Shown piece by piece: positions 2,886-16,762 of a stretch of 22,420 nt of DNA. Made by a program: the position numbers and the translations under genes. Under the pieces are notes generated by a model. It saw only the letters and a list, made by a program, of their open reading frames with translations. It was not told where the DNA came from and did no database searches. The stretch is from IMG/VR virus record IMGVR_UViG_3300010389_001464, positions 1-22,420 of that record; one strand, given 5' to 3'. Every line of letters begins with the position of its first letter. Position 1 is the stretch's first letter. This DNA comes from a virus.

Positions 2886-3089
2886 TCAAGAGATTCCAAA
2901 GAACAAGTTGCCAGTTAGAGCATAGGACAGAGCTCCTGCTATGATTCCCATCATTGCCCAACGACCATTATACATTTCAGTCATTTGCATGGGAGTCAGA
3001 AGACCTTTACGGTTATACTCTTGGTACACCATCTGGGGTTCTTTTGCCCACATGTTCTGCTGCCCAAACTCATTCTTTGTTACAGTCAT
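2886..3089 (-). CDS. hli: high-light-inducible protein (Hli), 67 aa
   Basis: A 67-residue Hli protein. A hydrophilic N-terminus (MTVTKNEFGQQNMW) leads into the pigment-binding helix with the signature E-M-Y-N-G-R-W-A-M-M-G (about residues 38-48), then IIAGALSYALTG. The Glu/Asn/Arg residues are those that ligate chlorophyll and form the inter-helix salt bridge in this family. It should insert in the thylakoid membrane and dissipate excess energy around damaged photosystems. It is the first gene of the cassette and lies 17 bases downstream of the predicted start of transcription from a near-perfect sigma70 promoter, so early expression by host polymerase is expected. Confidence 0.93.
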   Translation of the reverse strand: MTVTKNEFGQQNMWAKEPQMVYQEYNRKGLLTPMQMTEMYNGRWAMMGIIAGALSYALTGNLFFGIS

Positions 3090-3095
3090 AATACT

Positions 3096-3111
3096 TTGTA
3101 AAGATTTACAA
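3096..3111. repeat. 16-base perfect inverted repeat at the hli promoter
   Basis: TTGTAAA-GA-TTTACAA is a perfect palindrome one base downstream of the -10 box, covering the expected transcription start and the leader of hli. It could be an operator for a repressor or a 5' hairpin in the mRNA. Confidence 0.5.
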
Positions 3112-3112
3112 C

Positions 3113-3141
3113 ATTATATAGCAAAAATAAAGAGGGGTCAA
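3113..3141 (-). promoter_or_regulatory. sigma70-type promoter of hli/ferredoxin/peroxiredoxin unit
   Basis: On the minus strand TTGACC (3141-3136), a 17-base spacer, then TATAAT (3118-3113). The -35 box lies in the loop and descending arm of the preceding terminator hairpin. This matches the host housekeeping consensus, as expected for early cyanophage promoters. Confidence 0.8.
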
Positions 3142-3150
3142 GCCCCTCTT
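3121..3150 (-). terminator. rho-independent terminator
   Basis: AAGAGGGG-CTTGA-CCCCTCTT (3150-3130) followed by TATTTTT ends transcription from the 3432-3800 and 3184-3387 genes. The loop also supplies the -35 box of the next promoter. Confidence 0.8.
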
Positions 3151-3183
3151 GTTATTGTATCATGACAAACTAAGTATGAATAC

Positions 3184-3387
3184 TCAATTAAATTTTTTTA
3201 AAAATTCTCTATTCTTTTTTATAAATCCAGTGCAGTAAGAATTAACATCAATTTGCATTTCATAATGAGCATGAAGATGAATACTTTCAATAATGATTAA
3301 AGATACTAACAAAAGGGTTGGAATCAACCATAATTCATTTGCTAATTTTTTAATACTAAACTTACTTTTAGGAATTAGTTTACTCAT
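3184..3387 (-). CDS. hypothetical membrane protein, 67 aa
   Basis: A 67-residue protein with a basic N-terminus (MSKLIPKSKFSIKK), one hydrophobic segment at about residues 20-36 (LWLIPTLLLVSLIII) and a basic C-terminus with one cysteine (NSYCTGFIKKNREFLKKFN). It is a likely single-pass inner-membrane protein. The ATG lies immediately after the T-run of the terminator at 3391-3413 and has no clear ribosome-binding site, so it is probably expressed weakly by read-through. It could also be a decayed gene. Family unknown. Confidence 0.55.
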   Translation of the reverse strand: MSKLIPKSKFSIKKLANELWLIPTLLLVSLIIIESIHLHAHYEMQIDVNSYCTGFIKKNREFLKKFN

Positions 3388-3950: not shown

Positions 3951-3984
3951 TATTTATAGTATATCATTTTTGGAATCTTGTCAA
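3951..3984 (-). promoter_or_regulatory. overlapping sigma70 and late promoters
   Basis: On the minus strand a perfect -35 TTGACA (3984-3979) is followed after 17 bases by TACTAT (3961-3956). The exact late box TATAAATA (3958-3951) overlaps that -10. The TGA inside TTGACA is the stop codon of the last glycan-operon gene. The porin-like gene may thus be transcribed both early and late. Confidence 0.65.
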
Positions 3985-4763
3985 CCAATTAGTGGTTCCC
4001 AAAAACCATAGAATTCATAATCAAGTAATTCTCTAGTGCCCAGTTCTGGAGGTCTATTCTTCCAGAAGTTCATAACACCTTCAACATTTTGTTTATGGAA
4101 TACCTCAATATGATCCTGATGAATACCAGAATCAAAGTCATACCTATAGGTAAACAGAGGCATTGAATATGTTACCCCAGAATTATAAATGATTTCTTCT
4201 GAAGTTGCTCTAGGTTTAATCTTTTGATCCAACCTATACTTGTCACCCTTAATATGATGTTTGAGTAACTTGCCAGCATGGTGTCTTGTAATCACATAGA
4301 ATGCAGCACAGAAGTCATTGATCAATCTTGGGTGAAGATTTGCTCTGAGGTTCTTTGTGCTAGTGATAGCACACTGAAGTACATCCCAGTCATATGGCAT
4401 TGCTGACAGATATCCAGTCCAAGTAAATGGCCAATACTGTACAGTATCAAAGACAATATCATCCTCACAGATAATAATATAATCTAAATCTGTTTCTTCA
4501 TAGAAATATTTGATTGCCTTGAGGTGAGACATTGTGCATCCAAGTTCACCTGGAGTGATTAGTTCAGGAAATCTTCCAGATAAAAATTCAGTTGCATCAT
4601 TATCTCCCCTAGCATCAATACCAGAGATCCTAGTATTCTCAATCTCATAGTAGTCAAACAGACCATTCATGTGGTCTTGTCTGTCTGTTTCAGTGTCTAG
4701 ATTGATCCATAGAACTGGACCCATCCCTTTAAGTTTCTTTTTAATTGTAGAAGTATCTGTCAT
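3981..4763 (-). CDS. GT25-family glycosyltransferase (LPS type)
   Basis: A 260-residue enzyme of the glycosyltransferase 25 type, which adds galactose or other sugars to lipopolysaccharide cores or surface polymers. Visible hallmarks are WINLDTETDRQDHM near residues 19-32, GELGCTMSHLKAI (72-84) and the metal- and nucleotide-sugar-binding CEDDI (99-103). No membrane helix is present, so it acts in the cytoplasm or on the membrane surface. ATG 4763 is preferred: GGGGGAG lies four to five bases upstream and the start overlaps the previous stop as ATGA. The upstream in-frame ATG at 4775 would place this ribosome site inside the gene. It is the last of the 15 operon genes and a distant paralogue of the preceding one. 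The sugar and acceptor cannot be deduced. Confidence 0.85.
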   Translation of the reverse strand: MTDTSTIKKKLKGMGPVLWINLDTETDRQDHMNGLFDYYEIENTRISGIDARGDNDATEFLSGRFPELITPGELGCTMSHLKAIKYFYEETDLDYIIICEDDIVFDTVQYWPFTWTGYLSAMPYDWDVLQCAITSTKNLRANLHPRLINDFCAAFYVITRHHAGKLLKHHIKGDKYRLDQKIKPRATSEEIIYNSGVTYSMPLFTYRYDFDSGIHQDHIEVFHKQNVEGVMNFWKNRPPELGTRELLDYEFYGFWEPLIG

Positions 4764-5404
4764 GGTCTCCCCCATTGTGGATATCTGTGATGCTTTAAGA
4801 AAGTGTAATCCACATTTACCTTTTCAATATCAGAATAACTGTTCCTCTGCCAAGTTAAATGGGGAATTATTACATATGCATTAATCTCTCTATGGGATTC
4901 TGCATAGTGAACATCACAAGGTTTTGTTATATTAATTAGACTATCAATAAATCTATCATATACAGTATGTTTAAATCCAACAGAGTGTGCAGCAAGAGTG
5001 TACTCACACTTGAAGATATGCTCAGACACCTGTTGGAGATTCATACCATGGAAGTGTTGCCCTCCAAGGTACAACATATCCCAGTCTGCTGGAACTTCTG
5101 ATACAACCTCAGAAAATCTAGTCTGTAGATTACTGTCAAATTGAATATCATCTTCCAGCAAAAGAAAATTATCTAAGTTTAATTGCTTTGCATATTTAAT
5201 TGCAAAGAACTGAGACAGTGCACAACCAACTGCACCTTCTTTTATTTCTGGTGGAAAGTCAAGATTCATCTTTGCACCTTCAATACCAGGAATTCTTTCA
5301 ACACTCAAAGAATGTTTTGCAAATTCTTCAGAGGCTTCTTGCCATCTGTCTGGTCTTGAGTCTAGGTTGATACAAAAGATTCTACTAAAATAATCATTGA
5401 GCAT
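4760..5404 (-). CDS. GT25-family glycosyltransferase (LPS type)
   Basis: A 214-residue GT25-like enzyme: IFCINLDSRPDRWQEASE (9-26), EGAVGCALSQFFAIKYA (56-72) and LLLEDDIQFD (81-90) with the acidic EDD that binds the metal and sugar nucleotide. The start at 5404 is supported by GGAGGT seven bases upstream and by the TAATG overlap with the fucosyltransferase stop; a start at 5419 would lie before that ribosome site. It shares the same domain layout as the following gene but only the motifs are clearly alike, so the pair looks like an old duplication or two separate gains. It probably adds one sugar to the glycan built by this operon. Confidence 0.85.
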   Translation of the reverse strand: MLNDYFSRIFCINLDSRPDRWQEASEEFAKHSLSVERIPGIEGAKMNLDFPPEIKEGAVGCALSQFFAIKYAKQLNLDNFLLLEDDIQFDSNLQTRFSEVVSEVPADWDMLYLGGQHFHGMNLQQVSEHIFKCEYTLAAHSVGFKHTVYDRFIDSLINITKPCDVHYAESHREINAYVIIPHLTWQRNSYSDIEKVNVDYTFLKHHRYPQWGRP

Positions 5405-6204
5405 TAGATTACCTCCCATCCATCAAGATAAAGATCTGTTGTGTCATGGTCAGGTAAAGAAGATCCAAACCAAATCTTTGGTGCAATCACCTGCTGACTC
5501 TTAGCTAACCATGCACCCCACCAAGAGAATGAAGAATTTGCTATAACATGATGAGTGCACATGGACATGAAGCACATATCATATTCAGCTGGATTTCCTT
5601 CAGAGATAAAGAATCTATCTGGATCAAATATGCTTTGCATTTTACACCACTTAGGATCATCTGAAAATATAATCACAGGAACATTTGGAAGTTTCTTCAA
5701 TGCCTCCACATAATACTCAATAGGTGGAACTGGATGAAAAGATTGCAGATGCAAATAGTCACCTCTCCTAATATGCAGAGAGATGACTTCTTTTGATTGG
5801 ACTTCCTTCTCTAAAAATTCTTGACAAAAATCTACAATATAATCAGCAAAGGTAAAATCTTTTCTGATATCATCTTCAATATGTTTGAAGTATTTCTCAG
5901 ACTGAAAGTATCCATACAGATCTACATTGTCTTCACAAGTATTGAAAATACTTTCATCAAAATGATATCCAGATTCCTGGAGCATTTTGTTTGGCATAAG
6001 ACCTTTATTATATTTGTCTAAGTCAAATGCATCATAGATACTAGTCTTTGAATTTTTTACATTAGGATCACTAACTCCAAATACATCTTCTGAGGGAATA
6101 CAAAAATCAAATCCTCTATTAGCAGCAATACCTCTTAAAGAAGCATACTGAAACATTTGATTGCCAAGTCTTCCCAGATTTCCTAGTTGATTAAAAGAGA
6201 TCAT
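5404..6204 (-). CDS. alpha-1,2-fucosyltransferase, GT11 family
   Basis: A 266-residue enzyme that transfers L-fucose from GDP-fucose to a sugar acceptor, usually a galactose 2-OH. All three GT11 motifs are seen: GRLGNQMFQYA (11-21), SLHIRRGDYL (142-151) with the H-x-R-R-x-D that binds GDP-fucose, and ANSSFSWWGAWLA (222-234). Its length matches bacterial GT11 enzymes. GDP-fucose is supplied by gmd and the GDP-fucose synthase at the head of the same operon. It overlaps the GT10-like gene by four bases (ATGA). The linkage type is inferred from the family. I am sure of the family and less sure of the acceptor. Confidence 0.92.
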   Translation of the reverse strand: MISFNQLGNLGRLGNQMFQYASLRGIAANRGFDFCIPSEDVFGVSDPNVKNSKTSIYDAFDLDKYNKGLMPNKMLQESGYHFDESIFNTCEDNVDLYGYFQSEKYFKHIEDDIRKDFTFADYIVDFCQEFLEKEVQSKEVISLHIRRGDYLHLQSFHPVPPIEYYVEALKKLPNVPVIIFSDDPKWCKMQSIFDPDRFFISEGNPAEYDMCFMSMCTHHVIANSSFSWWGAWLAKSQQVIAPKIWFGSSLPDHDTTDLYLDGWEVI

Positions 6205-7004
6205 TGCAGGTAATTAGTATAGATAAAATCTTCAAGAACTTCAATCTGTTTTACTCTTTCCAGATTATCTTTGATTGCATCCATTTTACTCTCATAGATT
6301 TCATCAGAGATTTCAAACTCATCAGTCAATTCAATAATACCATCTTTGTTGAAATGATCTGCAATGTCAGGAGATCCCAGATAAACAGGGATAGTACCAG
6401 TAGCAAAACAATCAAGAATCTTCTCTGTGTAATATGATTCATAAACTCCATTCTCAATGACTACAGAGAACATGTAATCACATAGACCTTCTTCCTTAGT
6501 AGCAATCTCATTAAAACCTCTACCATAAAGATCTACCTGATCACCAATCTTTTCCACCCACTGAAGTCTATTCTTCTGACCTTCAGTGAATGCTTTGTTT
6601 GATGAGATCATAGAGATCATCTTAGTCTTCTCATAGATCTTTGGTTCATTAATCCAAAATCCTTGAGCAGGAACCCACTTAAACCTAGAGTCCAAAGCAA
6701 GTAGATCTTTGTCATGAGTAAAGATGTACTTAAACACCTTGAAGTATTCTTCTAGATTGGATTTAATTTCTTCTGTAATGCCAGGGACAACAAACTTAGA
6801 TTCAAGCAACCATCCATACTTAACACCATCAACACCATCAGTAAATGCTTGATTGATGTTTTGGTCAACATATACAGTTTCATCTGCAGACAGATCAAAT
6901 GCCCACTCTACAAACTTAGACTCTTTGCCATGAACAGAATATCCTTTGTTGCCACCAGTAAGATGGGTAAAAGAATTTCCAACTAGATTAATCTTGTACT
7001 TCAT
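6201..7004 (-). CDS. GT10-like fucosyltransferase
   Basis: A 267-residue protein whose C-terminal half carries the alpha-1,3/1,4-fucosyltransferase signature: YMFSVVIEN (177-185), then YYTEKILDCFATGTIPVYLG (191-210), matching F-x-I-x-x-E-N...Y-x-T-E-K-I-x-D-A-F-x-x-G-T-I-P-V-Y of family GT10. The conserved glutamate, lysine and aspartate of the GDP-fucose site are present. There is no signal peptide. It overlaps the preceding gene by 17 bases and the GT11 gene by four. Together with GT11 it gives the phage two unrelated fucosyltransferases, so two fucosyl linkages in one glycan are possible. Related GT10-fold enzymes can use other nucleotide sugars, which tempers the substrate call. Confidence 0.85.
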   Translation of the reverse strand: MKYKINLVGNSFTHLTGGNKGYSVHGKESKFVEWAFDLSADETVYVDQNINQAFTDGVDGVKYGWLLESKFVVPGITEEIKSNLEEYFKVFKYIFTHDKDLLALDSRFKWVPAQGFWINEPKIYEKTKMISMISSNKAFTEGQKNRLQWVEKIGDQVDLYGRGFNEIATKEEGLCDYMFSVVIENGVYESYYTEKILDCFATGTIPVYLGSPDIADHFNKDGIIELTDEFEISDEIYESKMDAIKDNLERVKQIEVLEDFIYTNYLQ

Positions 7005-7845
7005 AATTGATGTAGTTTTTGTCCTTTAAGTTTTTTATTTTGCTTTCAAAGAAAGGGTACATAATCCACTGTGGAGATTTTACCACAATGTCTGGTGTAA
7101 TTTCAAGTGCTGTCCTAAATTTTATTGGACCTTCATATTGATCCATTGCTGCTCCCCAACGAATACCAGGAATTCCTTTCCCCCACTTCTTAATGAATAC
7201 TGACATAGAAGTTTCATGGAACTTCATAGATGTCAAATGATGAATATCATTCCTAACAAATCCAGAATGTTTTTCAATCTCAACAAAATTAAAATCTATT
7301 TTGTTATGAACTCTATGGTGAAGAGGATCATTAACAGAACTAGATTCTCTATTGTAGATCATTTGTCTTAGGAAATAATCACAATCTTGCCAACCTATGT
7401 TGCAGTATCTCTCATCCCAAAGACCAACAGATTTAATTGCATCTACAGTATAACTATGAAATGCATCACCACATCCAGCAGAAATAAAACTATAAGTTTT
7501 ATGATACTCAACTAATGTATCAATGATGTCTTCATTATATTCAACATCATTCTGAGAAAGAATAACAATATCAGAGTCAGGATTATCAACATCTCTGAAT
7601 CCATCTATTAAACACTCATTCCAGTTTCTAGCAAGATGACCAGTGGAAAAGGTTGGTCTTGTATTATTGTTTACTACTTTCACAGAGAGGTTGATATCTT
7701 CTAGCAAGACAGAAACATCTTTGTAGTTATTAACTACTGTGATTTCGTAATCATAATTTTTAATTCCACTTTTCTCAAATGACTTTAGAGTTTTATTCAA
7801 CTCCAAATCATTATCATAAGTTACAAAGTAAACTTTAATTTTCAT
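6988..7845 (-). CDS. glycosyltransferase, GT2-like (GT-A fold)
   Basis: A 285-residue cytoplasmic enzyme with a GT-A start (KVYFVTYDND, EITVVNN), a central LARNWNECLIDG and ILSQNDVEYNED (95-106), where the acidic NDVE region should hold the metal. GLWDERYCNIGWQDCDYFLR lies further on, like the catalytic G-x-x-(D/E)-D of GT2 enzymes. ATG 7845 is chosen because it overlaps the previous stop as ATGA; the in-frame codon at 7854 is TTG. It has no transmembrane segment, so it is not a polymerising synthase. The donor sugar is unknown. Confidence 0.75.
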   Translation of the reverse strand: MKIKVYFVTYDNDLELNKTLKSFEKSGIKNYDYEITVVNNYKDVSVLLEDINLSVKVVNNNTRPTFSTGHLARNWNECLIDGFRDVDNPDSDIVILSQNDVEYNEDIIDTLVEYHKTYSFISAGCGDAFHSYTVDAIKSVGLWDERYCNIGWQDCDYFLRQMIYNRESSSVNDPLHHRVHNKIDFNFVEIEKHSGFVRNDIHHLTSMKFHETSMSVFIKKWGKGIPGIRWGAAMDQYEGPIKFRTALEITPDIVVKSPQWIMYPFFESKIKNLKDKNYINYEVQD

Positions 7846-8570
7846 AGGATGCAAATAGCAGTGTCTTGAACCATATTGTCATGATAATATTCATCATTCC
7901 ATTCTTCAAAGTCCCACTTAACTAGATCAAGTTCTTCATAGAACTGTCTAACTTCCTTGAGTCTGATGTCCCAAACATTATCAATTACAATCAGAGTATC
8001 CTTGTCTGCAACAGACATAGCAACTTCAAAGTCTCTCTTCACCCCTTCATAAGAGTGATCTCCATCAACAAAGATGAGGTCATATCTTCCACCAAAATCT
8101 TTTGATGCTTCCTTTAGAATTGCAATGTTCTTCTCACTAATTTCATCATTAGTATAGTCAACAAAATCACTAAAGGGAAGATCTACTTTATACTTCCAAT
8201 CATCATAATCAGAGTGATGAGGATACCAGTATCTTGCATTGATTCTATCTGAGTGTGGTCTATATGCAATCTGACCATCATAACCACCTTTCCTAATATC
8301 AAAGGAATCAATTACACCATAACCATCTTCACCATACAGTTCATCCATTGCCTCTGCCATGGCATTAGAACTTTCATAGTGCCATGACCCAATTTCAAGA
8401 ACAGTCTTTGCTTCTACCATCTTTACCAGAGTGGCAAGACAATTTCTACAGTGAGTTGAAGCACCTTCATACTTAAACCCTTGGAGGATTCCATTCTCAG
8501 GTCCTTTGTCCACATAATAATTCTTGAACTCATTCTTGATGAATTCAACTTTATTATCATATCCTTTCAT
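7842..8570 (-). CDS. SAM-dependent methyltransferase (Methyltransf_24-like)
   Basis: A 242-residue class I methyltransferase. Motif I, TVLEIGSWHYESSNAM (about 56-71), binds S-adenosylmethionine. RYDLIFVDGDHSYEGVKRDF contains the acidic residues and histidine usual in the cephalosporin-hydroxylase/FkbM-like sugar methyltransferases, followed by TLIVIDNVWD. Such enzymes often O-methylate sugars in surface glycans. ATG 8570 shares a base with the preceding TGA stop (TGATG); the codon before it, TTG at 8573, is less likely. Its place between an SGNH-type protein and a glycosyltransferase supports a glycan-modifying role. The methylated position is unknown. Confidence 0.78.
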   Translation of the reverse strand: MKGYDNKVEFIKNEFKNYYVDKGPENGILQGFKYEGASTHCRNCLATLVKMVEAKTVLEIGSWHYESSNAMAEAMDELYGEDGYGVIDSFDIRKGGYDGQIAYRPHSDRINARYWYPHHSDYDDWKYKVDLPFSDFVDYTNDEISEKNIAILKEASKDFGGRYDLIFVDGDHSYEGVKRDFEVAMSVADKDTLIVIDNVWDIRLKEVRQFYEELDLVKWDFEEWNDEYYHDNMVQDTAICIL

Positions 8571-9214
8571 CAAATTAATCCTCTCTTTTCAAACTCTTCT
8601 AAAATTGTTGGCATTGCTCTTTGAGAAAGATGCATGTGAGATCCTTCCCAATCATCAAGGAAGTCTGGTAAAGTTGTCATATCATCATTAACCATCTTAT
8701 AGAAGATTGAAGCAAACTCAAATCCTTCTCTAACACATGCTAGATGTAGAGCAGTGTTGAATGCAAAGGTGACCCAGTTTCTCTCTTGCTCAGTGCCAAA
8801 AGATGGTCCACCAGTATACTCTTTAGTTGCAGACCAAGAAGCAATAGGACCCCAAATAATAATCTTGACCCCATACTTTTTGTAGTAACTAATTGCATTA
8901 ATATACCTATTGACACATTCTACCACAAGGTCATTGACAGGTTTATCCTGCATCTTTGCCTGTTTGATTAAATGTGCTCTGATGTCAACCTCACCAAAGC
9001 AGAACATCAACTTGTCATCAACACCAAGTTCAATAGAATCAATTAGAGATTCAATGATTGGTTGTTTGTTTGCAATTTGATATGCTGTTGCTGGTCCAAT
9101 TCTATAACTTTTAAATTGGGGAAGAGTATTTGCTGCTGGTTCCGGCCAACATGGTTGCATTGCCTCCTCACCACTAAAGACTGCTGAGTGACTATCACCA
9201 ATACAATGAATCAT
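8570..9214 (-). CDS. SGNH-type hydrolase or acyltransferase-like protein
   Basis: A 214-residue protein that starts with the SGNH block I motif (MIHCIGDSHSAVFSG; Ser8 would be the nucleophile). It has FGEVDIRAH near residue 73 and ends with SHMHLSQRAMP, where a histidine in a D/S-x-x-H-like setting could complete the catalytic pair. SGNH proteins remove or transfer acetyl groups on sugars or hydrolyse esters. In a polysaccharide operon an O-acetyl esterase or O-acetyltransferase domain is plausible. There is no signal peptide, so it acts in the cytoplasm. It overlaps its upstream neighbour by four bases and the methyltransferase by one. The fold call is motif-based and moderate. Confidence 0.65.
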   Translation of the reverse strand: MIHCIGDSHSAVFSGEEAMQPCWPEPAANTLPQFKSYRIGPATAYQIANKQPIIESLIDSIELGVDDKLMFCFGEVDIRAHLIKQAKMQDKPVNDLVVECVNRYINAISYYKKYGVKIIIWGPIASWSATKEYTGGPSFGTEQERNWVTFAFNTALHLACVREGFEFASIFYKMVNDDMTTLPDFLDDWEGSHMHLSQRAMPTILEEFEKRGLI

Positions 9215-10170
9215 TTTAACTTACCAAGAATACTGTCTACAAAATCTACTTCATAAGTGTACCCATCTTCCATACCTATGTTCCAAATATTCTTGTTACC
9301 ATAGATTGTATTGTAGATGGTATGGATACCAAAACCATTCTCAACATACAAGAAATTTTTATTATATTTTTCTCTATAGAGATTCATTTGAATCTCATCA
9401 AAAGAATCATATGATCCCATACTTAATAGTTTATGCCAGTCTTCTGTCTTAATGATAAAAGTACTGGTAGTATAATATGGTTCTGTAAACTTCTTAATGC
9501 TGTATTTGTGCTTTGCAACTAGTCTATCAAGATGCTCTACAATGTAGTCATTCAATAGCACCTGTGCATCTGCACAAATTCTTATAGGGTGAATTCCCTT
9601 TAAGTATGTATCTAACTTAGATACCCCCTCAAAAAATAATGGTGAACTCCAAAAATAAGCATCAATTGTATGTTTATTCAATGAAGTATAATCTGCCCCC
9701 CACAATCCATTCGGCATTTCTTGATCAAGATAACAATTATAAATTGATTTTCTAACTTTTACATCTGTTATAAAGGATTCAACAAATCTATCTGTATGAG
9801 GAATGCCATTAGACAGCATAGGAGTGAGGACAAAGTTATCTTCTTCATCCAATACATCTATGTTTTCAATTATATAATCCCAAACATGATTTGGGATAAA
9901 GCAATCTTCATCTAGCTTAACTGCATACTTGTCTGACTGAAGACATACATTAACTTTCTGCATGTAGTTCAGTTCAACATCAGGGAACTGATAGATCTGA
10001 TGATTAATTCCTTCTAGGTTAGAAGACCAATCATATTCTTTTGTTGCTAGGATATTGAGAAAGATTTTTTCTTTATTCTCTGGTTTAATTTTATTCAGAA
10101 AGTAAGAAGTAATTTCCCAGTATTTCCAAAAGTCCCTTCTATTGTGAGACAGATAGTTAATGGTAATCAT
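9211..10170 (-). CDS. putative glycosyltransferase (GT-A-like), 319 aa
   Basis: A 319-residue protein starting MITINYLSHNRRDFWKYWEI, a GT-A-like opening. KYAVKLDEDCFIPNHVW (81-97) holds a D-x-D (D87, D89) suited to a metal and nucleotide sugar. NGLWGADY and FEGVSKLDTYLKG follow, then an acidic C-terminus. It has no membrane segment. It is similar in style to the family 2 enzymes around it but is not assignable to a numbered family by eye. It overlaps the methyltransferase upstream by four bases and the SGNH gene downstream by four. Donor and acceptor unknown. Confidence 0.6.
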   Translation of the reverse strand: MITINYLSHNRRDFWKYWEITSYFLNKIKPENKEKIFLNILATKEYDWSSNLEGINHQIYQFPDVELNYMQKVNVCLQSDKYAVKLDEDCFIPNHVWDYIIENIDVLDEEDNFVLTPMLSNGIPHTDRFVESFITDVKVRKSIYNCYLDQEMPNGLWGADYTSLNKHTIDAYFWSSPLFFEGVSKLDTYLKGIHPIRICADAQVLLNDYIVEHLDRLVAKHKYSIKKFTEPYYTTSTFIIKTEDWHKLLSMGSYDSFDEIQMNLYREKYNKNFLYVENGFGIHTIYNTIYGNKNIWNIGMEDGYTYEVDFVDSILGKLK

Positions 10171-10850
10171 TGAAGTTTAGACAGATTGACAATATTCAAC
10201 TCATCCTGTTTAAAGGATAATACTCTTTTGAATCCACAGTAATCAAAAAGTTCTTCTACTAATTCTATATCAAAAGTGTGATGATGTACAACCCTTGTTC
10301 TCTCATTGATATCACACAGTTCATAGAACTTAGGATGTCCACCATAACTCCAATCATGGAGTTCTTTTTGCTCTTCAATGTGAGTCTTATCATCCTCACC
10401 AATGTTGGTATTATAATCTTCTATCAAATGTTCTAGTGTTGTCAGTGGTCTCTTTCTATCAAAGCAATATTGATAGTCTGGAATAATAGTAAGAATATAA
10501 CCACCCTCTTTAAGAATATACTTTTCCCACAACTTTAAAGTTTTGATTGGATTAGCAAAATGTTCTATGGCATGTGAAGTAAGAACAAAATCATACTTCT
10601 TTAATTGCTTCAGTTGATCTTCATTAGTGCAATCTACATCATACTGCCTACCAAGATTTCCACCATAGATGTAGTTTGGATCAAAAGACGTTTGAAAGTG
10701 ATTGTCCTTAATGATGTTTCCACCATCAAGGTTCACATAAGGATAGAGGTGCATACCATAATGAGGTTTATCAAACAACTCAGTGGGACCACCAAATTCT
10801 ATTCCAGTCTTCTTCCTTAATGCTCTTACTACTTTTTCAAAGGTTGACAT
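10167..10850 (-). CDS. SAM-dependent methyltransferase-like protein
   Basis: A 227-residue protein with the C-terminal half of a class I methyltransferase: YDFVLTSHAIEHFANPIKTL (motif post I and II, the H-x-I-E-H signature of Methyltransf_11-type enzymes), then LWEKYILKEGGYILTIIPDY (motif III). The glycine-rich motif I is weak, perhaps IEFGGPTELF near residue 17-26, so SAM binding is probable rather than certain. HHHTFDIELVEELFDYCGF near the end is typical of sugar or glycan methyltransferases in polysaccharide loci. It overlaps the upstream gene by 22 bases. Confidence 0.7.
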   Translation of the reverse strand: MSTFEKVVRALRKKTGIEFGGPTELFDKPHYGMHLYPYVNLDGGNIIKDNHFQTSFDPNYIYGGNLGRQYDVDCTNEDQLKQLKKYDFVLTSHAIEHFANPIKTLKLWEKYILKEGGYILTIIPDYQYCFDRKRPLTTLEHLIEDYNTNIGEDDKTHIEEQKELHDWSYGGHPKFYELCDINERTRVVHHHTFDIELVEELFDYCGFKRVLSFKQDELNIVNLSKLQ

Positions 10851-11698
10851 AGTACATTGATATCATAGGGTAATTGTTTTGCTATTCCATACTTCTTTGC
10901 TAAAGGTAAAGAAGGATAGTAAATTAAGTTATTAAATGGTTCAATATCTATAAAAGTATTTTGCTTTCCAATGTGTGGATAAGGAGAGATTATATCTTCT
11001 TCTAAAATAGATTCCTTGGGCAATCTAGTTAGGTAGTAATAAAAAATATCAAGATCTTGATATTTTCCAGAAGGATGTAACTCTGGATTATATTTTAATT
11101 CTAGCAACTGAGTTATGTGATATGGTTCTGTTGCATCATATCCAAGATTAATTTTATTTCCAACTTGAACTCCAACATATCCTGCTGCTGTACATTGATC
11201 ACCTATCTTCATCTCACCATCATGATCATCCTCAAATTGCCAATCAATCTTTTTAAGAACTTCTGACTTAGCAAACCAGAATGGTGCTCTTATATGACTC
11301 TCATGTGGGTATCTCTTGTGCCCATTAAAGATTTGACTTGCACCAAATCCAATCATTGGATGAGAATCTAAAGTATCAACAATATCCTTTAACCAATTGT
11401 CTCTCTTGAGAATTACATCATCTGATATGAAGACAAAGTAATCATAGTCATCTTGATACTTGTAGAAGTAATGCCTATAAGCACCAAATGCTCTGTGTGG
11501 AATATCTCTACCATTCACAATTTTATTATGAATGATCATTCTACCAAACTTATTTTCTAGGTTTGTTGGAACTCCAAGGTAGTCTCTATGAATGATAATC
11601 AAATCATGCTCATACCCTGCCCAACAATTAAAATAAGATGGCCAAAACAAGTCTCCCTGCTTTGCACCACCTAGCATTATGACAGCAACTTTTTTCAT
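10829..11698 (-). CDS. putative glycosyltransferase, 289 aa
   Basis: A 289-residue protein with KVAVIMLGGAKQGDLFWPSY at the N-terminus and DYDYFVFISDDVILKRDNWL (84-103), where D93-D94 could take the place of the D-x-D metal site. HRAFGAYRHYFYKYQDDYD before it is a helix pattern often seen ahead of that site in GT2-like enzymes. The protein is soluble. It starts with an ATGA overlap with the preceding gene. I base the call on the acidic motif and context; the family number and substrate are open. Phage and cyanobacterial polysaccharide clusters often hold such divergent enzymes. Confidence 0.62.
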   Translation of the reverse strand: MKKVAVIMLGGAKQGDLFWPSYFNCWAGYEHDLIIIHRDYLGVPTNLENKFGRMIIHNKIVNGRDIPHRAFGAYRHYFYKYQDDYDYFVFISDDVILKRDNWLKDIVDTLDSHPMIGFGASQIFNGHKRYPHESHIRAPFWFAKSEVLKKIDWQFEDDHDGEMKIGDQCTAAGYVGVQVGNKINLGYDATEPYHITQLLELKYNPELHPSGKYQDLDIFYYYLTRLPKESILEEDIISPYPHIGKQNTFIDIEPFNNLIYYPSLPLAKKYGIAKQLPYDINVLCQPLKK

Positions 11699-12381
11699 TG
11701 TACCATCCTAAGTTTTTGAATAGTTTCTTCTCCAGCAACATTGAATGCAGGATCTTTAAACTTCAATGACTTTACAGTTGAATAAGGATTCATAGAAAAG
11801 TCATACTTATATCTAACTCTCTTTGACCACTCAACATCTTCACCCTGGCAGTGAAGTAGATTATCATCTAAAGGATGATCTTCCATAACCTGCTTCTTAG
11901 CAACCCAATAAGTTCCAGAAATATATTGATACTTAGAAAGATGAGTCATGTCATATGGAATCAAACATTCTCTATTTGGAAGAACAATTGAATCCATGAA
12001 GTTATCATTATGAGGCCAAATAACCCAATCCCTAAACCTAGAATAATCTGGATTAACAAATTTGTTCATGCAGATTTTAAAGTCATCTCCAAACTTTAGA
12101 AATCCTTCATACCAGTCATCCTCAAAGACAACATAGTCATGAGTATAAACTACATTTTCATACCTGGCATTTATTGTAACAATATTTTTCTTTCTAGTAA
12201 TCCACCCAGGTCTAATACTTTCATCAAATGGAATGATGAAAGTATTTTTTCTAGATACCTGACTATTACCAACTATAAGGATTTGATACTCTGGAATATT
12301 CTGTCTTTCAATACTGTCAATTACAAGATTGAGAGATTCATCTGAAGTCCCAGCAGTTATAATTCCAAAGGTAAACTTCAT
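11695..12381 (-). CDS. glycosyltransferase, GT2-like
   Basis: A 228-residue GT-A enzyme: FTFGIITAGTSDESLNLVID at the start, WITRKKNIVTINARYENVV (60-78), YVVFEDDWYEGF (84-94) with an acidic EDD metal site, YWVAKKQVMEDHPLDD, and GEDVEWSKRVR (180-190), the G-E-D-x-E-W catalytic motif of many family 2 transferases. This is one of the clearer GT2-like members of the operon. The enzyme is cytoplasmic and without membrane helices. It overlaps both neighbours by four bases. Which sugar it transfers cannot be read from the sequence. Confidence 0.78.
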   Translation of the reverse strand: MKFTFGIITAGTSDESLNLVIDSIERQNIPEYQILIVGNSQVSRKNTFIIPFDESIRPGWITRKKNIVTINARYENVVYTHDYVVFEDDWYEGFLKFGDDFKICMNKFVNPDYSRFRDWVIWPHNDNFMDSIVLPNRECLIPYDMTHLSKYQYISGTYWVAKKQVMEDHPLDDNLLHCQGEDVEWSKRVRYKYDFSMNPYSTVKSLKFKDPAFNVAGEETIQKLRMVQ

Positions 12382-12842
12382 TTCAGAAATCCAACATAGT
12401 CACTACAAATACCATAGCAGTCATATGCTCTCAAGTCAACAAATTCATCAAGATTCTTATGCCATTCTGGCATCACTATAACAGATCTATTTGTATATGT
12501 TTTGCCTGGATATGTCCAAATCTTATTTTGACTTGTCAAAGTAAAATCATCTTCTTGGTGCCAAAAATAATTAAATCCACTAGTACCAAAAGAAAACTGT
12601 TGGAGTGCCTCAATGTTCTTACAATGAATCCAAAGATGCTCTCTTATAGATCCTAACCAGTACCAAGTGACTGGGTACATTGGTTCATCATGCCCAAGGT
12701 ACAATTTTTCATCTGCCACACTTAACCTAACATCAATCTCCACATCAAAACCTGCTTCAATTGCCTGCAGGATATACTCTGGATTATTTTCCTTTGATGG
12801 ATCTGGTCCATTAATGTTCCCTCTATGGGCAATGAGCTTCAT
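12378..12842 (-). CDS. glycerophosphodiester phosphodiesterase-like protein (GDPD)
   Basis: A 154-residue protein with the GDPD active-site pattern: IAHRGNI (H6-R7), KENNPEYILQAIEAGFDVEIDVRLS (E18-N19; E35-x-D37) and YLGHDEP (H51). It is shorter than the usual 230-300-residue glycerophosphodiesterases, but all N-terminal catalytic residues are present. It may cleave a phosphodiester in a glycan precursor or nucleotide-linked intermediate rather than phospholipid breakdown products. The start at 12842 has GGAG seven bases upstream and a TAATG overlap with the HAD/nucleotidyltransferase gene. The longer frame from 12905 lies inside that gene. Tight coupling to a nucleotidyltransferase suggests a shared pathway. 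Confidence 0.75.
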   Translation of the reverse strand: MKLIAHRGNINGPDPSKENNPEYILQAIEAGFDVEIDVRLSVADEKLYLGHDEPMYPVTWYWLGSIREHLWIHCKNIEALQQFSFGTSGFNYFWHQEDDFTLTSQNKIWTYPGKTYTNRSVIVMPEWHKNLDEFVDLRAYDCYGICSDYVGFLK

Positions 12843-14215
12843 TAGACTTCTCCTTTGTAATGCTCTAAGAAATAGTTCAAATCTTCTGGGGTTCCAATAC
12901 CCCACATACCATCTTTGTCAATGTCTTTGATTCTGATCTTCTTACCATCTTCAATTGCTTCATTGAAAACAGGACAAACATAGAATTCATTATTGACTCT
13001 AATGTTTTTCTCAATCATTTGTTCTGCAAACTTTACATAATCAGAACCGCGTTTCCAGTAATAGATTCCAACAGTTGCATGTTCTGAAATAGGTTTCTTC
13101 TCAGCAACCTCAGACACATAACCATCTTCACCCAACTTAGCATAGGACCATTTGGGGTGAGTTGCTGGGAATGTAATGATACCACCATCAATTCCATCAT
13201 TCTGGAAAGCATAAAGAGTTTCATTACTATCCCACTCAACAAACTGGTCAGAGTTTGCCATTACTAGTGGTTCATCGTTGTTGATGAATTCTTTCGCAAG
13301 TAGAGTGGTACAAGCTGCACCTTCTGTGAGTCCATCAACCTGTACAATGTTGCACCCAGGAGCAATAAGAGGGAGCAGGTAATTAAGGTTGTACTTGTCA
13401 TAGTGTTCTCTCTGTACAATAAATGTGTAATTTGCTTTGATGTTCAGGTTCTCAACAACCACTTGAATCATTGGTTTGCCCTTAACTTCAATCAAAGGTT
13501 TGGGGAAGGTGTATCCCTGACTAGCAAATCTGCTGCCAGCACCTGCCATAGGAATAAGAACATTCATAGTCTTGCTCTCCCATGCAACTTTCTTCTTTGT
13601 GCCATTTAGAATTTTTTTAATCCTATCAATCTTTGCCTGATTAAGATCTTTTCTATTCTCTACAGGAACTAAATGTGCTTTGCTATCTAAAGCACCCTGT
13701 CTACCAATATGACTATCTTCAATAATTACAGTGTCAGCAGGAAGAGCACCCAATGCAGTCATACACTTCCAGTACATTGCTGGGAATGGTTTGTTTCTGA
13801 CTACATCTTCATTGGACACATACATGTCCACAAACTCTAATACTCCTAATCTTAATAAAATGATTTTAACAGTATTCCTAATAGAGTTAGATGCAACTGC
13901 AATCTTGTAACCTGCATCTACAAGTTGCTGGAAGTATCCCATCAACTCATAGTCTTTTGCAACACAGTCATTAAAGATCTTAAGAGTTGCTTCTTGTTTA
14001 TCTTTCCAGATCTTATCATACTGATCTACAGGAAGACTCTTATTCTTGGTGAGAAGTTCTAGTTTTGCTCTAGTGGGGAGACCATCATAGATGCTTACAT
14101 GTTCTTCTCTACTGATAGCATAGTCTTCACCAAGTGCTTGGTTAAGTGCCTCATAATGATAGTCCTTGCTATCAATAAGGACACCATCCAAATCAAAGAT
14201 TACCAGTTTTGTCAT
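12842..14215 (-). CDS. fused HAD phosphatase / sugar nucleotidyltransferase
   Basis: A 457-residue two-domain enzyme. Residues 1-210 are HAD-superfamily, beta-phosphoglucomutase-like: [10 protein letters not shown] with D8 and D10, VASNS (107-111), NKPFP with Lys142, and IIEDSHIG with D167. From about 217, MNVLIPMAGAGSRF, then PKPLIEVKGKPMIQVV (238-253), is the nucleotide-binding signature of NTP sugar transferases; NSDQF and EVAEKKPIS follow. It could dephosphorylate or isomerise a sugar phosphate and activate it as a nucleotide sugar. ATG 14215 sits inside the end of the GDP-fucose synthase gene (23-base overlap); the frame's longer N-terminus is a shadow of that gene. The substrate is unknown. 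The following GDPD-like gene may work with it. Confidence 0.85.
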   Translation of the reverse strand: MTKLVIFDLDGVLIDSKDYHYEALNQALGEDYAISREEHVSIYDGLPTRAKLELLTKNKSLPVDQYDKIWKDKQEATLKIFNDCVAKDYELMGYFQQLVDAGYKIAVASNSIRNTVKIILLRLGVLEFVDMYVSNEDVVRNKPFPAMYWKCMTALGALPADTVIIEDSHIGRQGALDSKAHLVPVENRKDLNQAKIDRIKKILNGTKKKVAWESKTMNVLIPMAGAGSRFASQGYTFPKPLIEVKGKPMIQVVVENLNIKANYTFIVQREHYDKYNLNYLLPLIAPGCNIVQVDGLTEGAACTTLLAKEFINNDEPLVMANSDQFVEWDSNETLYAFQNDGIDGGIITFPATHPKWSYAKLGEDGYVSEVAEKKPISEHATVGIYYWKRGSDYVKFAEQMIEKNIRVNNEFYVCPVFNEAIEDGKKIRIKDIDKDGMWGIGTPEDLNYFLEHYKGEV

Positions 14216-15131
14216 TCTTGTACCATTCGTAAGTATCATAGATGCCTTGACGGATTCCAATCTTAGGACTCCAACCAAGTTGTTTTATTTTGTCCACATT
14301 TAAAACTTTCCTAGGAGTTCCATTTGGTTTGGAAGTATCCCATTTAATCTGTCCCTTATATCCAACAATGATGGAAATAAGTTCAGTAAGTTCTTTAATA
14401 GTTAAATCTTGACCTGTACCAATATTAATGATCTCAGGGTTATTATAAGAAATCATACAATGATAACATGCCTCAGCAAGATCGTCAACATGAAGGAACT
14501 CTCTTTTTGCAGATCCATCTCCCCAACACTCAACATGTGGAGAGTTAGATTCTTTTGCCTCATGAAACTTTCTAATCAAAGCAGGCAAAACATGAGAAGT
14601 TTCTAGATCAAAATTGTCATTCAAACCATAAAGGTTTGTTGGCATCAATGAGATGGCATTAAATCCATATTGTTCTTTGTATGCTTGACACATCTTAATG
14701 CCAGCAATCTTAGCAATGGCATAGGCATCATTAGTGGGTTCTAGAGCACCAGTCATCAACTGATCTTCTGTGATTGGTTGTGTTGCCATCTTGGGATAGA
14801 TGCAGGATGAGCCAAGGAATAGAAGTTTCTTAGTTCCACATCTGTAAGATGCATCAATAATATTTGACTGGATCATCAAGTTGTCATAAATGAATTCTGC
14901 TGGATACATTTTGTTCCCAAGAATTCCACCAACTTTGGCAGCAGCAAGAAAAACATAATCTGGTGCTGCTTGTTTGAAATATGCATCAACTTGTTTTCTA
15001 TCTCTTAGATCACAAGACTCTCTGCAAACCCAATAGATTTTTTCATAACCCTTGCTCTTTAATTTACGAACAATGGCAGATCCAACTAGACCATTGTGTC
15101 CAGCAACAAATATCTTAGATTTACTGTCCAT
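14193..15131 (-). CDS. fcl: GDP-L-fucose synthase
   Basis: A 312-residue epimerase/reductase that converts GDP-4-keto-6-deoxymannose to GDP-L-fucose with NADPH. It has the Rossmann motif [14 protein letters not shown] (8-21), [11 protein letters not shown], the serine site LGSSCIYP (106-113) and the Y-x-x-x-K pair Y137/K141 (AYAIAKIAG). [12 protein letters not shown] and [14 protein letters not shown] are typical of the GER1/WcaG group. Length is normal (about 310-320). ATG 15131 lies 11 bases before the end of gmd; an in-frame upstream start at 15149 would overlap gmd further. It acts directly after Gmd and feeds the two fucosyltransferases downstream. Confidence 0.95.
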
Positions 15132-16128
15132 AAAGTACCATGTCTTCAATCAATTGATCAAATGAAATTTTAGGTTCCCAACCTAATTTTTCCTTTGCCT
15201 TAGTGGCATCACCTAATAAGGTTTCTACTTCAGCAGGTCTGAAGTATTTAGGATCTACCTTTACCACCACATTGTTGGTGTAAGTATCAATTCCAATTTC
15301 ATTTAATCCTTCACCTTCCCATGCAATATTCATTCCAAAGTATGGTGCTGTCTTTTCAACAAACTCTCTGACTGAGTGTTGTTCACCAGTTGCAATCACA
15401 TAGTCCTCAGGTTCATCTTGCTGGAGCATCAACCACATTGCTTCAACATAATCCTTAGCATGTCCCCAGTCTCTCATAGCATTGAGGTTGCCAAGATACA
15501 GTTTGCTTTGCAGTCCAGAAGAGATCATAGAAAAACCTCTAGTGATTTTTCTGGTTACAAAAGTTTCACCTCTCCTTGGAGACTCATGGTTAAACAGAAT
15601 TCCAGAACTAGCGTGCATTCCATATGATTCACGATAGTTTTTGACAATCCAATATCCATAGAGTTTAGCAACTCCATAAGGAGATCTTGGATAGAATGGT
15701 GTTGTTTCTTTTTGTGGAACTTCTTGAACTAGACCATACAATTCACTTGTAGATGCCTGGTAAATACGAACATCATCTTCCATACCAAGAAGACGTACTG
15801 CCTCAAGAATACGAAGAGTTCCAAGTGCATCTGTTTGTCCAGTATATTCTGGCATTTCAAAAGACACCTTTACATGACTTTGAGCACCAAGATTATAAAT
15901 CTCTTCTGGTTTTACCTTTTGAATGACCTTAACAATATTTGTAGAGTCTGTTAGATCACCATAGTGAAGATGAATTCTTTCATAGATGTGGTCAATTCTA
16001 TGAGTATTAATTAGAGAAGATCTCCTAACAATACCATGAACTTCATAACCTTTCTCAAGCAGTAACTCTGCAAGATAAGATCCATCCTGTCCAGTGATAC
16101 CAGTAATTAATGCTTTCTTTAATCTCAT
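15121..16128 (-). CDS. gmd: GDP-mannose 4,6-dehydratase
   Basis: A 335-residue short-chain dehydrogenase/reductase that makes GDP-4-keto-6-deoxy-D-mannose, the first step from GDP-mannose to GDP-fucose. It shows the NADP-binding [16 protein letters not shown] (8-23), RRSS (35-38), STSELYG (126-132, with the catalytic Ser/Thr and Glu) and Y151-GVA-K155. [16 protein letters not shown] and [15 protein letters not shown] complete the family pattern. Length is slightly short of bacterial Gmd (about 350-370) but the core is intact. GDP-mannose must come from the host, as no mannose-activating enzyme is visible here. It is the first gene of the operon, with a promoter fused to a terminator just upstream and only a weak ribosome site. 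Confidence 0.96.
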
Positions 16129-16148
16129 TACAGAATAATATTTTTTAT

Positions 16149-16177
16149 ATTATACAAAAAAAGAGAGGTTTATGCAA
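16149..16177 (-). promoter_or_regulatory. promoter of the glycan operon
   Basis: On the minus strand TATAAT (16154-16149) is preceded after 17 bases by TTGCAT (16177-16172), a weak -35 box lying in the loop and arm of the terminator hairpin. Transcription would begin about 14 bases before the gmd ATG, leaving almost no leader. Confidence 0.55.
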
Positions 16178-16184
16178 CCTCTCT
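16156..16184 (-). terminator. rho-independent terminator before gmd
   Basis: AGAGAGGTT-GCATA-AACCTCTCT (9 bp, 16184-16162) followed by seven T. It closes the tRNA-containing transcript and could act as an attenuator for read-through into gmd. Confidence 0.85.
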
Positions 16185-16187
16185 CTT

Positions 16188-16387
16188 CATGTAGGTATGC
16201 AGGCTCGCCACCAATTCTTTGACTGGAAATTGGAAACCAGGCGGGAGTTAGATCCCATCCGCACCACTTGCTTTTAGGAAGCAAGAAACCTAAGGGGTCA
16301 TATGACTCCACCAGGATTTTTAAAGTCTCTCCATGACTGAAGGGGGGGTTTCCCGACCAGGGTGCTTTTAGAGTCTTCCCAAGACTA
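16188..16387 (-). ncRNA. candidate structured RNA upstream of gmd
   Basis: No convincing gene lies in these 200 bases between tRNA-Met and the gmd terminator, but the minus strand is full of stems. These are AGTCTT/AAGACT (16386-16372), GGG-AAA-CCC, the near-palindrome around GTCATATGAC, CTTGCTT/AAGCAAG, GGGA/TCCC, and a two-part stem CGCC/GGCG enclosing CCAATT/AATTGG (16233-16211). A block of the form GACTyTAAAA...CCTGGT occurs twice, and CTAAAAGCA twice. A terminator follows directly. Weinberg and colleagues described two structured RNA classes, wcaG and manA, in cyanophages and marine DNA, the former before exopolysaccharide genes. This position fits, but I could not test the match. It may be a riboswitch-like element controlling gmd or a free-standing RNA. 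Confidence 0.55.
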
Positions 16388-16460
16388 TGCTCCCTGTGAG
16401 GATCGAACTCACCTCAGGCGAATTATGAGTTCGCTGCATTCACCAGATTGCTAAAGGAGC
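16388..16460 (-). tRNA. tRNA-Met (CAT) or lysidine-type tRNA-Ile
   Basis: A 73-base cloverleaf: acceptor GCTCCTT/AGGGAGC, D stem GCA/TGC, anticodon stem GCGAA/TTCGC with loop CTCATAA (anticodon CAT), and T stem GTGAG/CTCAC with loop TTCGATC. CCA is not encoded. The CAT anticodon fits elongator methionine; a modified tRNA-Ile reading AUA is possible, though the neighbouring tRNA already has the TAT anticodon for AUA. Confidence 0.88.
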
Positions 16461-16484
16461 ATTTGCTATTTGCGAATAGCAAAT
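16461..16484. repeat. perfect hairpin filling the spacer between two tRNAs
   Basis: ATTTGCTATT-TGCG-AATAGCAAAT is a 10-bp perfect inverted repeat occupying exactly the spacer between tRNA-Ile and tRNA-Met. It shares only the discriminator base of tRNA-Ile. No T-run follows, so it is not a terminator; it may guide processing of the tRNA precursor. Confidence 0.6.
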
Positions 16485-16561: not shown

Positions 16562-16762
16562 TTAAGGGGCATCAGTATTATACTCAGTGTATATCTTTAA
16601 CCACTCTTCAGTCTCTTCATCATATGGAACCATTACTGCATCACCATACTCACTGGTAATTACAAATGATTCTCCACCTTCAACTCTGTCCATTAAGTTA
16701 TCAAAATCTTCTTGAAATTCTTCTACAGTAAATTTCTGAAGATCACCAATTTCTTTTTTCAT
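16562..16762 (-). CDS. Phd/YefM-like antitoxin
   Basis: A 66-residue acidic protein, MKKEIGDLQKFTVEEFQEDF, then NLMDRVEGGESFVITSEYGD. This matches the Phd/YefM pattern: a short strand, a helix ending in L-x-D-R-V-E-x-G-E, F-V-I-T, and a strand of the D-A-V-M-V-P type. Such proteins fold as dimers that bind DNA with the N-terminal part and neutralise a RelE- or Doc-type toxin with the C-terminal tail. No toxin gene is seen next to it. The preceding 51-residue gene, which overlaps it by 20 bases, is not a known toxin. It may block a host toxin, regulate phage genes, or pair with an unrecognised partner. ATG 16762 is chosen because the frame upstream of it lies inside the previous gene. Confidence 0.65.
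   Translation of the reverse strand: MKKEIGDLQKFTVEEFQEDFDNLMDRVEGGESFVITSEYGDAVMVPYDEETEEWLKIYTEYNTDAP

Follow-up and report, generated by a model that had tools for sequence, protein, structure and literature searches.

The wcaG RNA (RF01761) dates from 2010 and is still an orphan riboswitch candidate; Weinberg et al. 2010 (PMC2864571) rate it as a probable one, located ahead of exopolysaccharide or high-light genes. RNA-based antitermination is represented by EAR, the epsC motif of Bacillus exopolysaccharide operons, and by put of phage HK022 (PMC8955417). A further cyanophage RNA, manA (RF01745), adjoins tRNAs and lies 370 nt after wcaG in S-CREM1. Riboswitches of the preQ1-I and SAM-II/V families are short stem-loops whose A-rich tail folds back and pairs with the loop.

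The window analysed here is a stretch of viral DNA of 22,420 nucleotides (IMG/VR record IMGVR_UViG_3300010389_001464, positions 1 to 22,420), and the closest named relatives of the region described below are T4-like Synechococcus phages (Kyanoviridae). It carries a full-length, high-scoring wcaG RNA, which shows the family traits of a cyanophage context and a gmd gene directly downstream, the latter being followed by a GDP-fucose synthase gene. Different from the wcaG RNA as modelled, this RNA is preceded by two additional pseudoknot modules that are contained in no Rfam model, and the reading of wcaG as a potential 5' UTR would not apply to promoter-derived mRNA, as a terminator and a promoter intervene. 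The locus resembles EAR in placing a structured RNA near a terminator that borders a polysaccharide operon, and put in placing one near a terminator in a phage early transcript, but it matches neither in sequence nor in Rfam. The modules share with preQ1-I and SAM-II/V the short stem-loop and the A-rich tail paired into the loop; they differ in having no Rfam match even at E 10, an invariant GG in the loop and two to three pseudoknot pairs, and in occurring in tandem copies at gene 3' ends. As for manA, which the first-pass annotation had named as a candidate for the same RNA, no match was found in 16100-16480 even at E 10, and since the S-CREM1 manA sequence contains no module, the module was also rejected as a part of manA.

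Organization of the locus

The region occupies the gene-free gap between tRNA-Met and gmd (Table 1). Its repeats and hairpins had been noted in the first-pass annotation, and they are indeed present: the stems, for which a minimum of five had been given, are the stem and the 3' hairpin of each of the two modules, the three stems of wcaG and the terminator, which as described there precedes a fucose-pathway gene. The repeated block is real as well, with the copies GACTCTAAAAGCACCCTGGT (16375-16356) and GACTTTAAAAATCCTGGT (16327-16310), and CTAAAAGCA at 16371-16363 recurs inside wcaG (on the plus strand, TGCTTTTAG at 16363-16371 and 16269-16277). Module A directly adjoins the 3' end of tRNA-Met; the first two bases of its 3' hairpin, which is short and varies among relatives, also belong to the match of the module model.

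Table 1. Features of the tRNA-Met to gmd gap and of the neighbouring genes
Feature	Position	Strand	Basis
tRNA-Met (CAT)	16387..16461	minus	ARAGORN; Rfam tRNA 52 bits
Module A, long-tail: P1 AGUC/GACU, loop UUGGGAA, tail CUAAAAGCACC, CUGGU	16353..16386	minus	model R1, 49.0 bits (copy belonged to the R1 seed)
Module A 3' hairpin, CGGG-AAA-CCC..	16342..16355	minus	sequence and relatives
Module B, short-tail: P1 AGUC/GACU, loop AUGGAGA, tail UUAAAAAUC, CUGGU	16307..16338	minus	model R1, 45.8 bits (copy belonged to the R1 seed)
Module B 3' hairpin, GGAGUCAUAUGACCCC	16294..16309	minus	palindrome 16294-16309
wcaG RNA (RF01761), full length, model 1-98	16197..16293	minus	97.7 bits, cut-off 42
Intrinsic terminator, GAGAGAGGUUGCAUAAACCUCUCUUUUUUU	16153..16193	minus	inverted repeat and T-run; fold; same place in 93 wcaG relatives
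Promoter: -35 TTGCAT (16177-16172), 17-nt spacer, -10 TATAAT (16154-16149)	16149..16177	minus	sequence
gmd, GDP-mannose 4,6-dehydratase, first gene in the sugar operon downstream	15121..16128	minus	PF16363, 519 bits
wcaG/fcl-type GDP-fucose synthase gene, second operon gene	14193..15149	minus	PF01370, 218 bits

The product of the second operon gene is, by sequence resemblance, presumably a GDP-fucose synthase rather than another epimerase. A long run of sugar genes on the minus strand (3981-16128), with gmd, an epimerase, a HAD and nucleotidyltransferase fusion and a GT11 fucosyltransferase (5407-6204), probably serves surface glycan modification. On the other side, just upstream of a tRNA pair, a small ORF (16565-16747, minus) resembles Phd/YefM antitoxins (E 4e-5, below the curated cut-off); Phd-like antitoxins also lie near wcaG or modules in several named phages. 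Matches below the cut-off to RF04354 (Plastid-ycf2 5'UTR) repeatedly fall antisense to phage tRNA genes (window 16387-16460, plus; loci L122, L124, L125, L126 and L128), and this model may represent a reversed tRNA.

Taken together, positions 16387-16153 of the minus strand very probably encode a single composite RNA, about 235 nt long, made up of two H-type pseudoknot modules, wcaG and an intrinsic terminator. Because this composite starts at the end of tRNA-Met and ends before the gmd gene's own promoter, its arrangement in the sequence makes it highly probable that it forms the 3' end of the tRNA/early unit lying upstream rather than a 5' leader for gmd mRNA made from the promoter. Messages initiated there would lack the RNA, since the terminator and a full promoter separate wcaG from gmd. 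Transcripts reading through from upstream would still contain wcaG despite the terminator and promoter, both in the window and in its relatives.

Structure of the upstream modules

The 94 bases between tRNA-Met and wcaG (16387-16294) have no match in Rfam 15, even at E 10. They hold two copies of a module of about 45 nt, consisting of a 4-bp stem (P1), a 7-nt loop with an invariant GG, a UAAAA tail, a loop-pairing strand, CUGGU and a GG...CCC hairpin. Loop and tail were compared in 232 distinct module sequences, which were collected by a finder whose only demands are four Watson-Crick pairs in P1, GG at positions 3-4 of the loop and CTGGT[CG]G past an A-rich tail. Loop position 2 and the third base before CUGGU (L2-t3), whose pairing is not demanded, are Watson-Crick partners in all 232 sequences (C-G in 146, U-A in 86). 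By tail length the copies split into two discrete classes. In the long class (n=120, mostly with 11-nt tails) loop position 5 and the fourth base before CUGGU (L5-t4), again not required to pair by the finder, are Watson-Crick partners in 120 of 120 (A-U 53, G-C 53, U-A 14), while in the short class (n=112, mostly with 9-nt tails) both positions are A in every copy. The GG of the loop is kept in 232 of 248 matches when the finder does not demand it. An alignment of 86 sequences, in which the P1 columns are paired by construction and the two pseudoknot pairs are not, gave a covariation score of 0.489 as compared to 0.148 for shuffles and at most 0.088 with slid partners. As the L2-t3 and L5-t4 pairs covary without having been required, the module is, on this comparative evidence, an H-type pseudoknot. 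The window has one copy of either class, the first long and the second short, with U16381-A16363 (L2-t3) and G16378-C16364 (L5-t4) in module A and U16333-A16317 (L2-t3) in module B.

Two other explanations of the loop were discarded. Plain GG-CC pairing of the loop to CCUGGU is broken by ACUGGU variants, whereas the L2-t3 and L5-t4 rules never fail. CsrA-type sites (ANGGA in loops), suggested by the GGA-rich loops, do not fit either, as the long-tail class has no ANGGA and the GG lies inside the covarying pseudoknot.

Occurrence of modules and of wcaG

Module repeats are present singly or paired in many cyanophages. Requiring one pseudoknot pair in addition, the finder returned 461 matches in cyanophage contigs totalling 2.57 Mb (303 viral loci, some of them collected by module patterns), as opposed to 16 matches in Markov-shuffled sequence. 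For loci collected by wcaG sequence alone and with 400 nt of upstream sequence present, a module lies within 400 nt upstream of 76 of 91 wcaG RNAs (one module in 40, two in 36) but in none of 279 control windows. All 21 cyanophage genomes picked for likeness to the region carry one to three modules each, mostly about 18 nt before wcaG; modules are absent from seven cyanophages taken without such preselection, of which Syn9 alone has a wcaG match above the cut-off. The layout of the window recurs in isolates such as S-SM2 and Bellamy. The wcaG model has no match in 14 control genomes. A bacterial origin of the module was rejected: 84,980 species genomes yielded 60 pattern matches, about as many as expected by chance, and the structure is kept in only one of them, a Rhodobacteraceae MAG contig that is cyanophage-like. 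The association with 76 of 91 wcaG RNAs and the empty bacterial genomes thus identify the module, by its distribution, as a cyanophage RNA that travels with wcaG.

Neither Rfam 15 nor the open-access literature searched describes the module, its association with wcaG or the terminator-promoter layout; as far as these sources go, it is these parts that are new, wcaG itself being already known. Of the suggestions in the first-pass annotation, wcaG is right for 16293-16197, and a new class is partly right for 16387-16294, with its covarying pseudoknot pairs and no Rfam match. The Rfam comparison and the covariation analysis proposed there were carried out, and the idea of a structured RNA withstood both.

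wcaG and the terminator-promoter hybrid

The wcaG match (E = 6.6e-18, Rfam covariance model) comprises a first hairpin, a GCGGAUGGG..CUCCCGC hairpin and a last hairpin. In the last hairpin of the window CUGG is complementary to the loop sequence CCAG, and in 175 of 211 copies from relatives (58 when shuffled) the loop exactly complements the four bases preceding UUUC, with CUGG/CCAG, CCAG/CUGG, CCUG/CAGG, CAGG/CCUG, CUAG/CUAG and CGAG/CUCG all being found. Complementarity is weaker in the first hairpin, where UUAGG on the 5' side faces CCUAA in the window loop and three bases match in 112 of 226 copies (41 when shuffled). The Rfam structure line of wcaG does not include the complementarity of the last hairpin; that of the wcaG loops may already be drawn in a figure of Weinberg et al. 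2010, whose text treats wcaG only briefly.

An intrinsic terminator follows within 90 nt of wcaG in 87 of 95 copies but in only 16 of 285 control segments, and with longer loops allowed 93 terminators are found, which begin 10-26 nt after wcaG. In 61 of these 93 the hairpin contains a TTGNNN box with a TATAAT-like box behind it, and the spacing is 17 nt in 59 of the 61. The window conforms to this design, with TTGCAT inside the terminator hairpin and ahead of the gmd start at 16128. A classical antiterminator switch, in which aptamer and terminator pairing exclude each other, is not supported, because there is no conserved helix between wcaG and the terminator: the duplex energy of wcaG with its own terminator arm (-9.99) equals that of swapped pairs (-9.64 to -10.18), and no pairing goes beyond chance.

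A second hybrid of this kind, unaccompanied by wcaG, lies at about 3070-3190 (minus) of the window, with GAGGGGCTTGACCCCTCTTTATTTTTGCTATATAATG and a -35 box TTGACC in the hairpin. Related CTTGACACCCC...TATATAAT units recur in relatives, and the terminator-promoter hybrid is therefore a general promoter design of these phages.

Gene context

Clusters of modules (n=207) start at the 3' ends of genes, as compared to 36% for random positions: 24 adjoin a tRNA, 174 have an ORF stop no more than 60 nt away, in 108 cases with the stop codon inside the module, and 9 have neither. The composite thus takes up the stretch from the end of the upstream gene to the terminator. The genes upstream of wcaG belong to at least 22 families. 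Downstream, the first ORF past wcaG, as classified by sequence motifs, is of nucleotide-sugar type in 64 of 97 cases (epimerase 22, gmd 16, cytidylyltransferase-like 15, other sugar genes 7, cupin isomerase-like 4) and of another type in 33. Other neighbours in named phages include tRNA-Met (S-CREM1), ferrochelatase (S-H38) and a 2OG-Fe oxygenase (Syn1).

Isolated modules are found between other genes and have no terminator. In 86% of the 85 modules that have no wcaG behind them, 32 of which represent one orthologous gene family, the ATG of an ORF of at least 30 aa follows within 40 nt (control 31.5%), and in 51% within 12 nt (control 11%), often as CCCC-UU-AUG behind a hairpin with GGGAG.

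Possible functions of the composite

What, then, would such an RNA do at the end of one transcription unit and immediately before the next? Our first but tentative choice is that the composite controls read-through from upstream into the nucleotide-sugar operon. It would act in cis on RNA polymerase that comes from upstream, setting the frequency with which the terminator is passed, either in the manner of put and EAR or gated by a ligand, so that the downstream gene would be served both by its own early promoter and by regulated read-through. The sugar-type genes, lying behind so many different upstream genes, favour a relation of the RNA to what is downstream, and together with the tight coupling of terminator to wcaG they favour the view that read-through into the sugar operon is what it affects. 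The -35 box in the terminator hairpin with its almost constant spacer, the full-length wcaG match, the covarying pseudoknots and the co-occurrence of module and wcaG are also in line with this proposal. Then again, as no antiterminator helix is conserved, it would require a polymerase-binding or protein-mediated effect, there is no Rfam match to EAR, and isolated modules exist without a terminator. Moreover, sugar operons may share a hypervariable site, in which case the downstream link could be synteny.

A second possibility, which we rank below read-through control, is that the modules and wcaG shield the 3' end of the tRNA/short-ORF transcript upstream from exonucleases, or define that end, or that tRNA processing sets them free as a stable RNA of about 235 nt with a role elsewhere. 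Stacked pseudoknots are typical exonuclease blocks. The position of the first modules, only 9 of 207 of which follow neither tRNA nor stop, agrees with such a role, as does the terminator that comes after almost every wcaG, usually together with a new promoter. It would leave unexplained, however, both the downstream nucleotide-sugar genes and the existence of two alternative conserved module classes.

Ranked third, and in our view unlikely, is a metabolite riboswitch, in which wcaG with or without the modules would bind a nucleotide sugar or another metabolite and control the terminator or the translation of gmd. The rating by Weinberg et al. 2010 (PMC2864571), the sugar genes and the adjoining terminator speak for it. 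Yet the anatomical premise of the nucleotide-sugar sensor proposed in the first-pass annotation is weakened, because in the window as in most copies the terminator and a -35/-10 promoter (17-nt spacing in 59 copies) separate wcaG from the gene. Complementarity to the terminator is no better than in swapped pairs, and one third of the downstream genes, such as tRNA-Met, ferrochelatase and oxygenases, are not sugar genes.

It is improbable that the module is an intercistronic translation element whose 3' hairpin would mask or expose the GGAG/GGGA ribosome site of the ORF that follows. The closely following ATGs of modules without wcaG suggest it, but a third of these cases (32) belong to one orthologous family, short intergenic gaps are usual in compact phage genomes, and only isolated modules fit, wcaG being what follows in the window. 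A chance origin of the hairpins and repeats in the intergenic gap, for which nothing speaks beyond the shortness of the repeats, is refuted by the E-value of wcaG, the covariation of the modules and their conserved position.

Whichever of these applies, wcaG usually comes with one or two pseudoknot modules that lie outside its Rfam model, and it fronts a terminator-promoter hybrid rather than being a plain leader. The proper object for tests is thus the whole composite, assayed for termination and 3' ends, and not the 98-nt wcaG core alone, assayed for a ligand; the near-perfect covariation of loop and tail supplies the exact point mutations for such tests.

The 3' hairpin of the module, GGAGUCA..GACCC, is also found behind 53 wcaG-type first hairpins, always after GUGGU, where it replaces the usual wcaG hairpin GCGGAU..CCCGC (134 copies). 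This suggests that heads and 3' hairpins have been exchanged between modules and wcaG. Modules and wcaG might even be interchangeable units of one undescribed modular RNA that acts directly on RNA polymerase, each unit being a pseudoknotted head ending in UGGU/GUGGY with a swappable 3' hairpin and standing in tandem at gene ends. We consider this doubtful; if true, it would amount to a viral antitermination system made of RNA only, linking host-modifying sugar operons to the tRNA/early unit.

Two further arrangements were seen among the relatives. In loci L143, L149, L010 and L193, wcaG-type first hairpins, single or in tandem, occur without the last wcaG hairpin and are followed by the GGAGUCA..GACCC hairpin. 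In L155, L163, L180 and L181, after tRNA-Met, another conserved structured stretch, GTGGTGGAGCTAAGTGC..CGAATATACCCCGCAGGATAAGGGTTAAGCCTGCTGGTGCGGACATCTGC, lies past a module and a wcaG-type hairpin.
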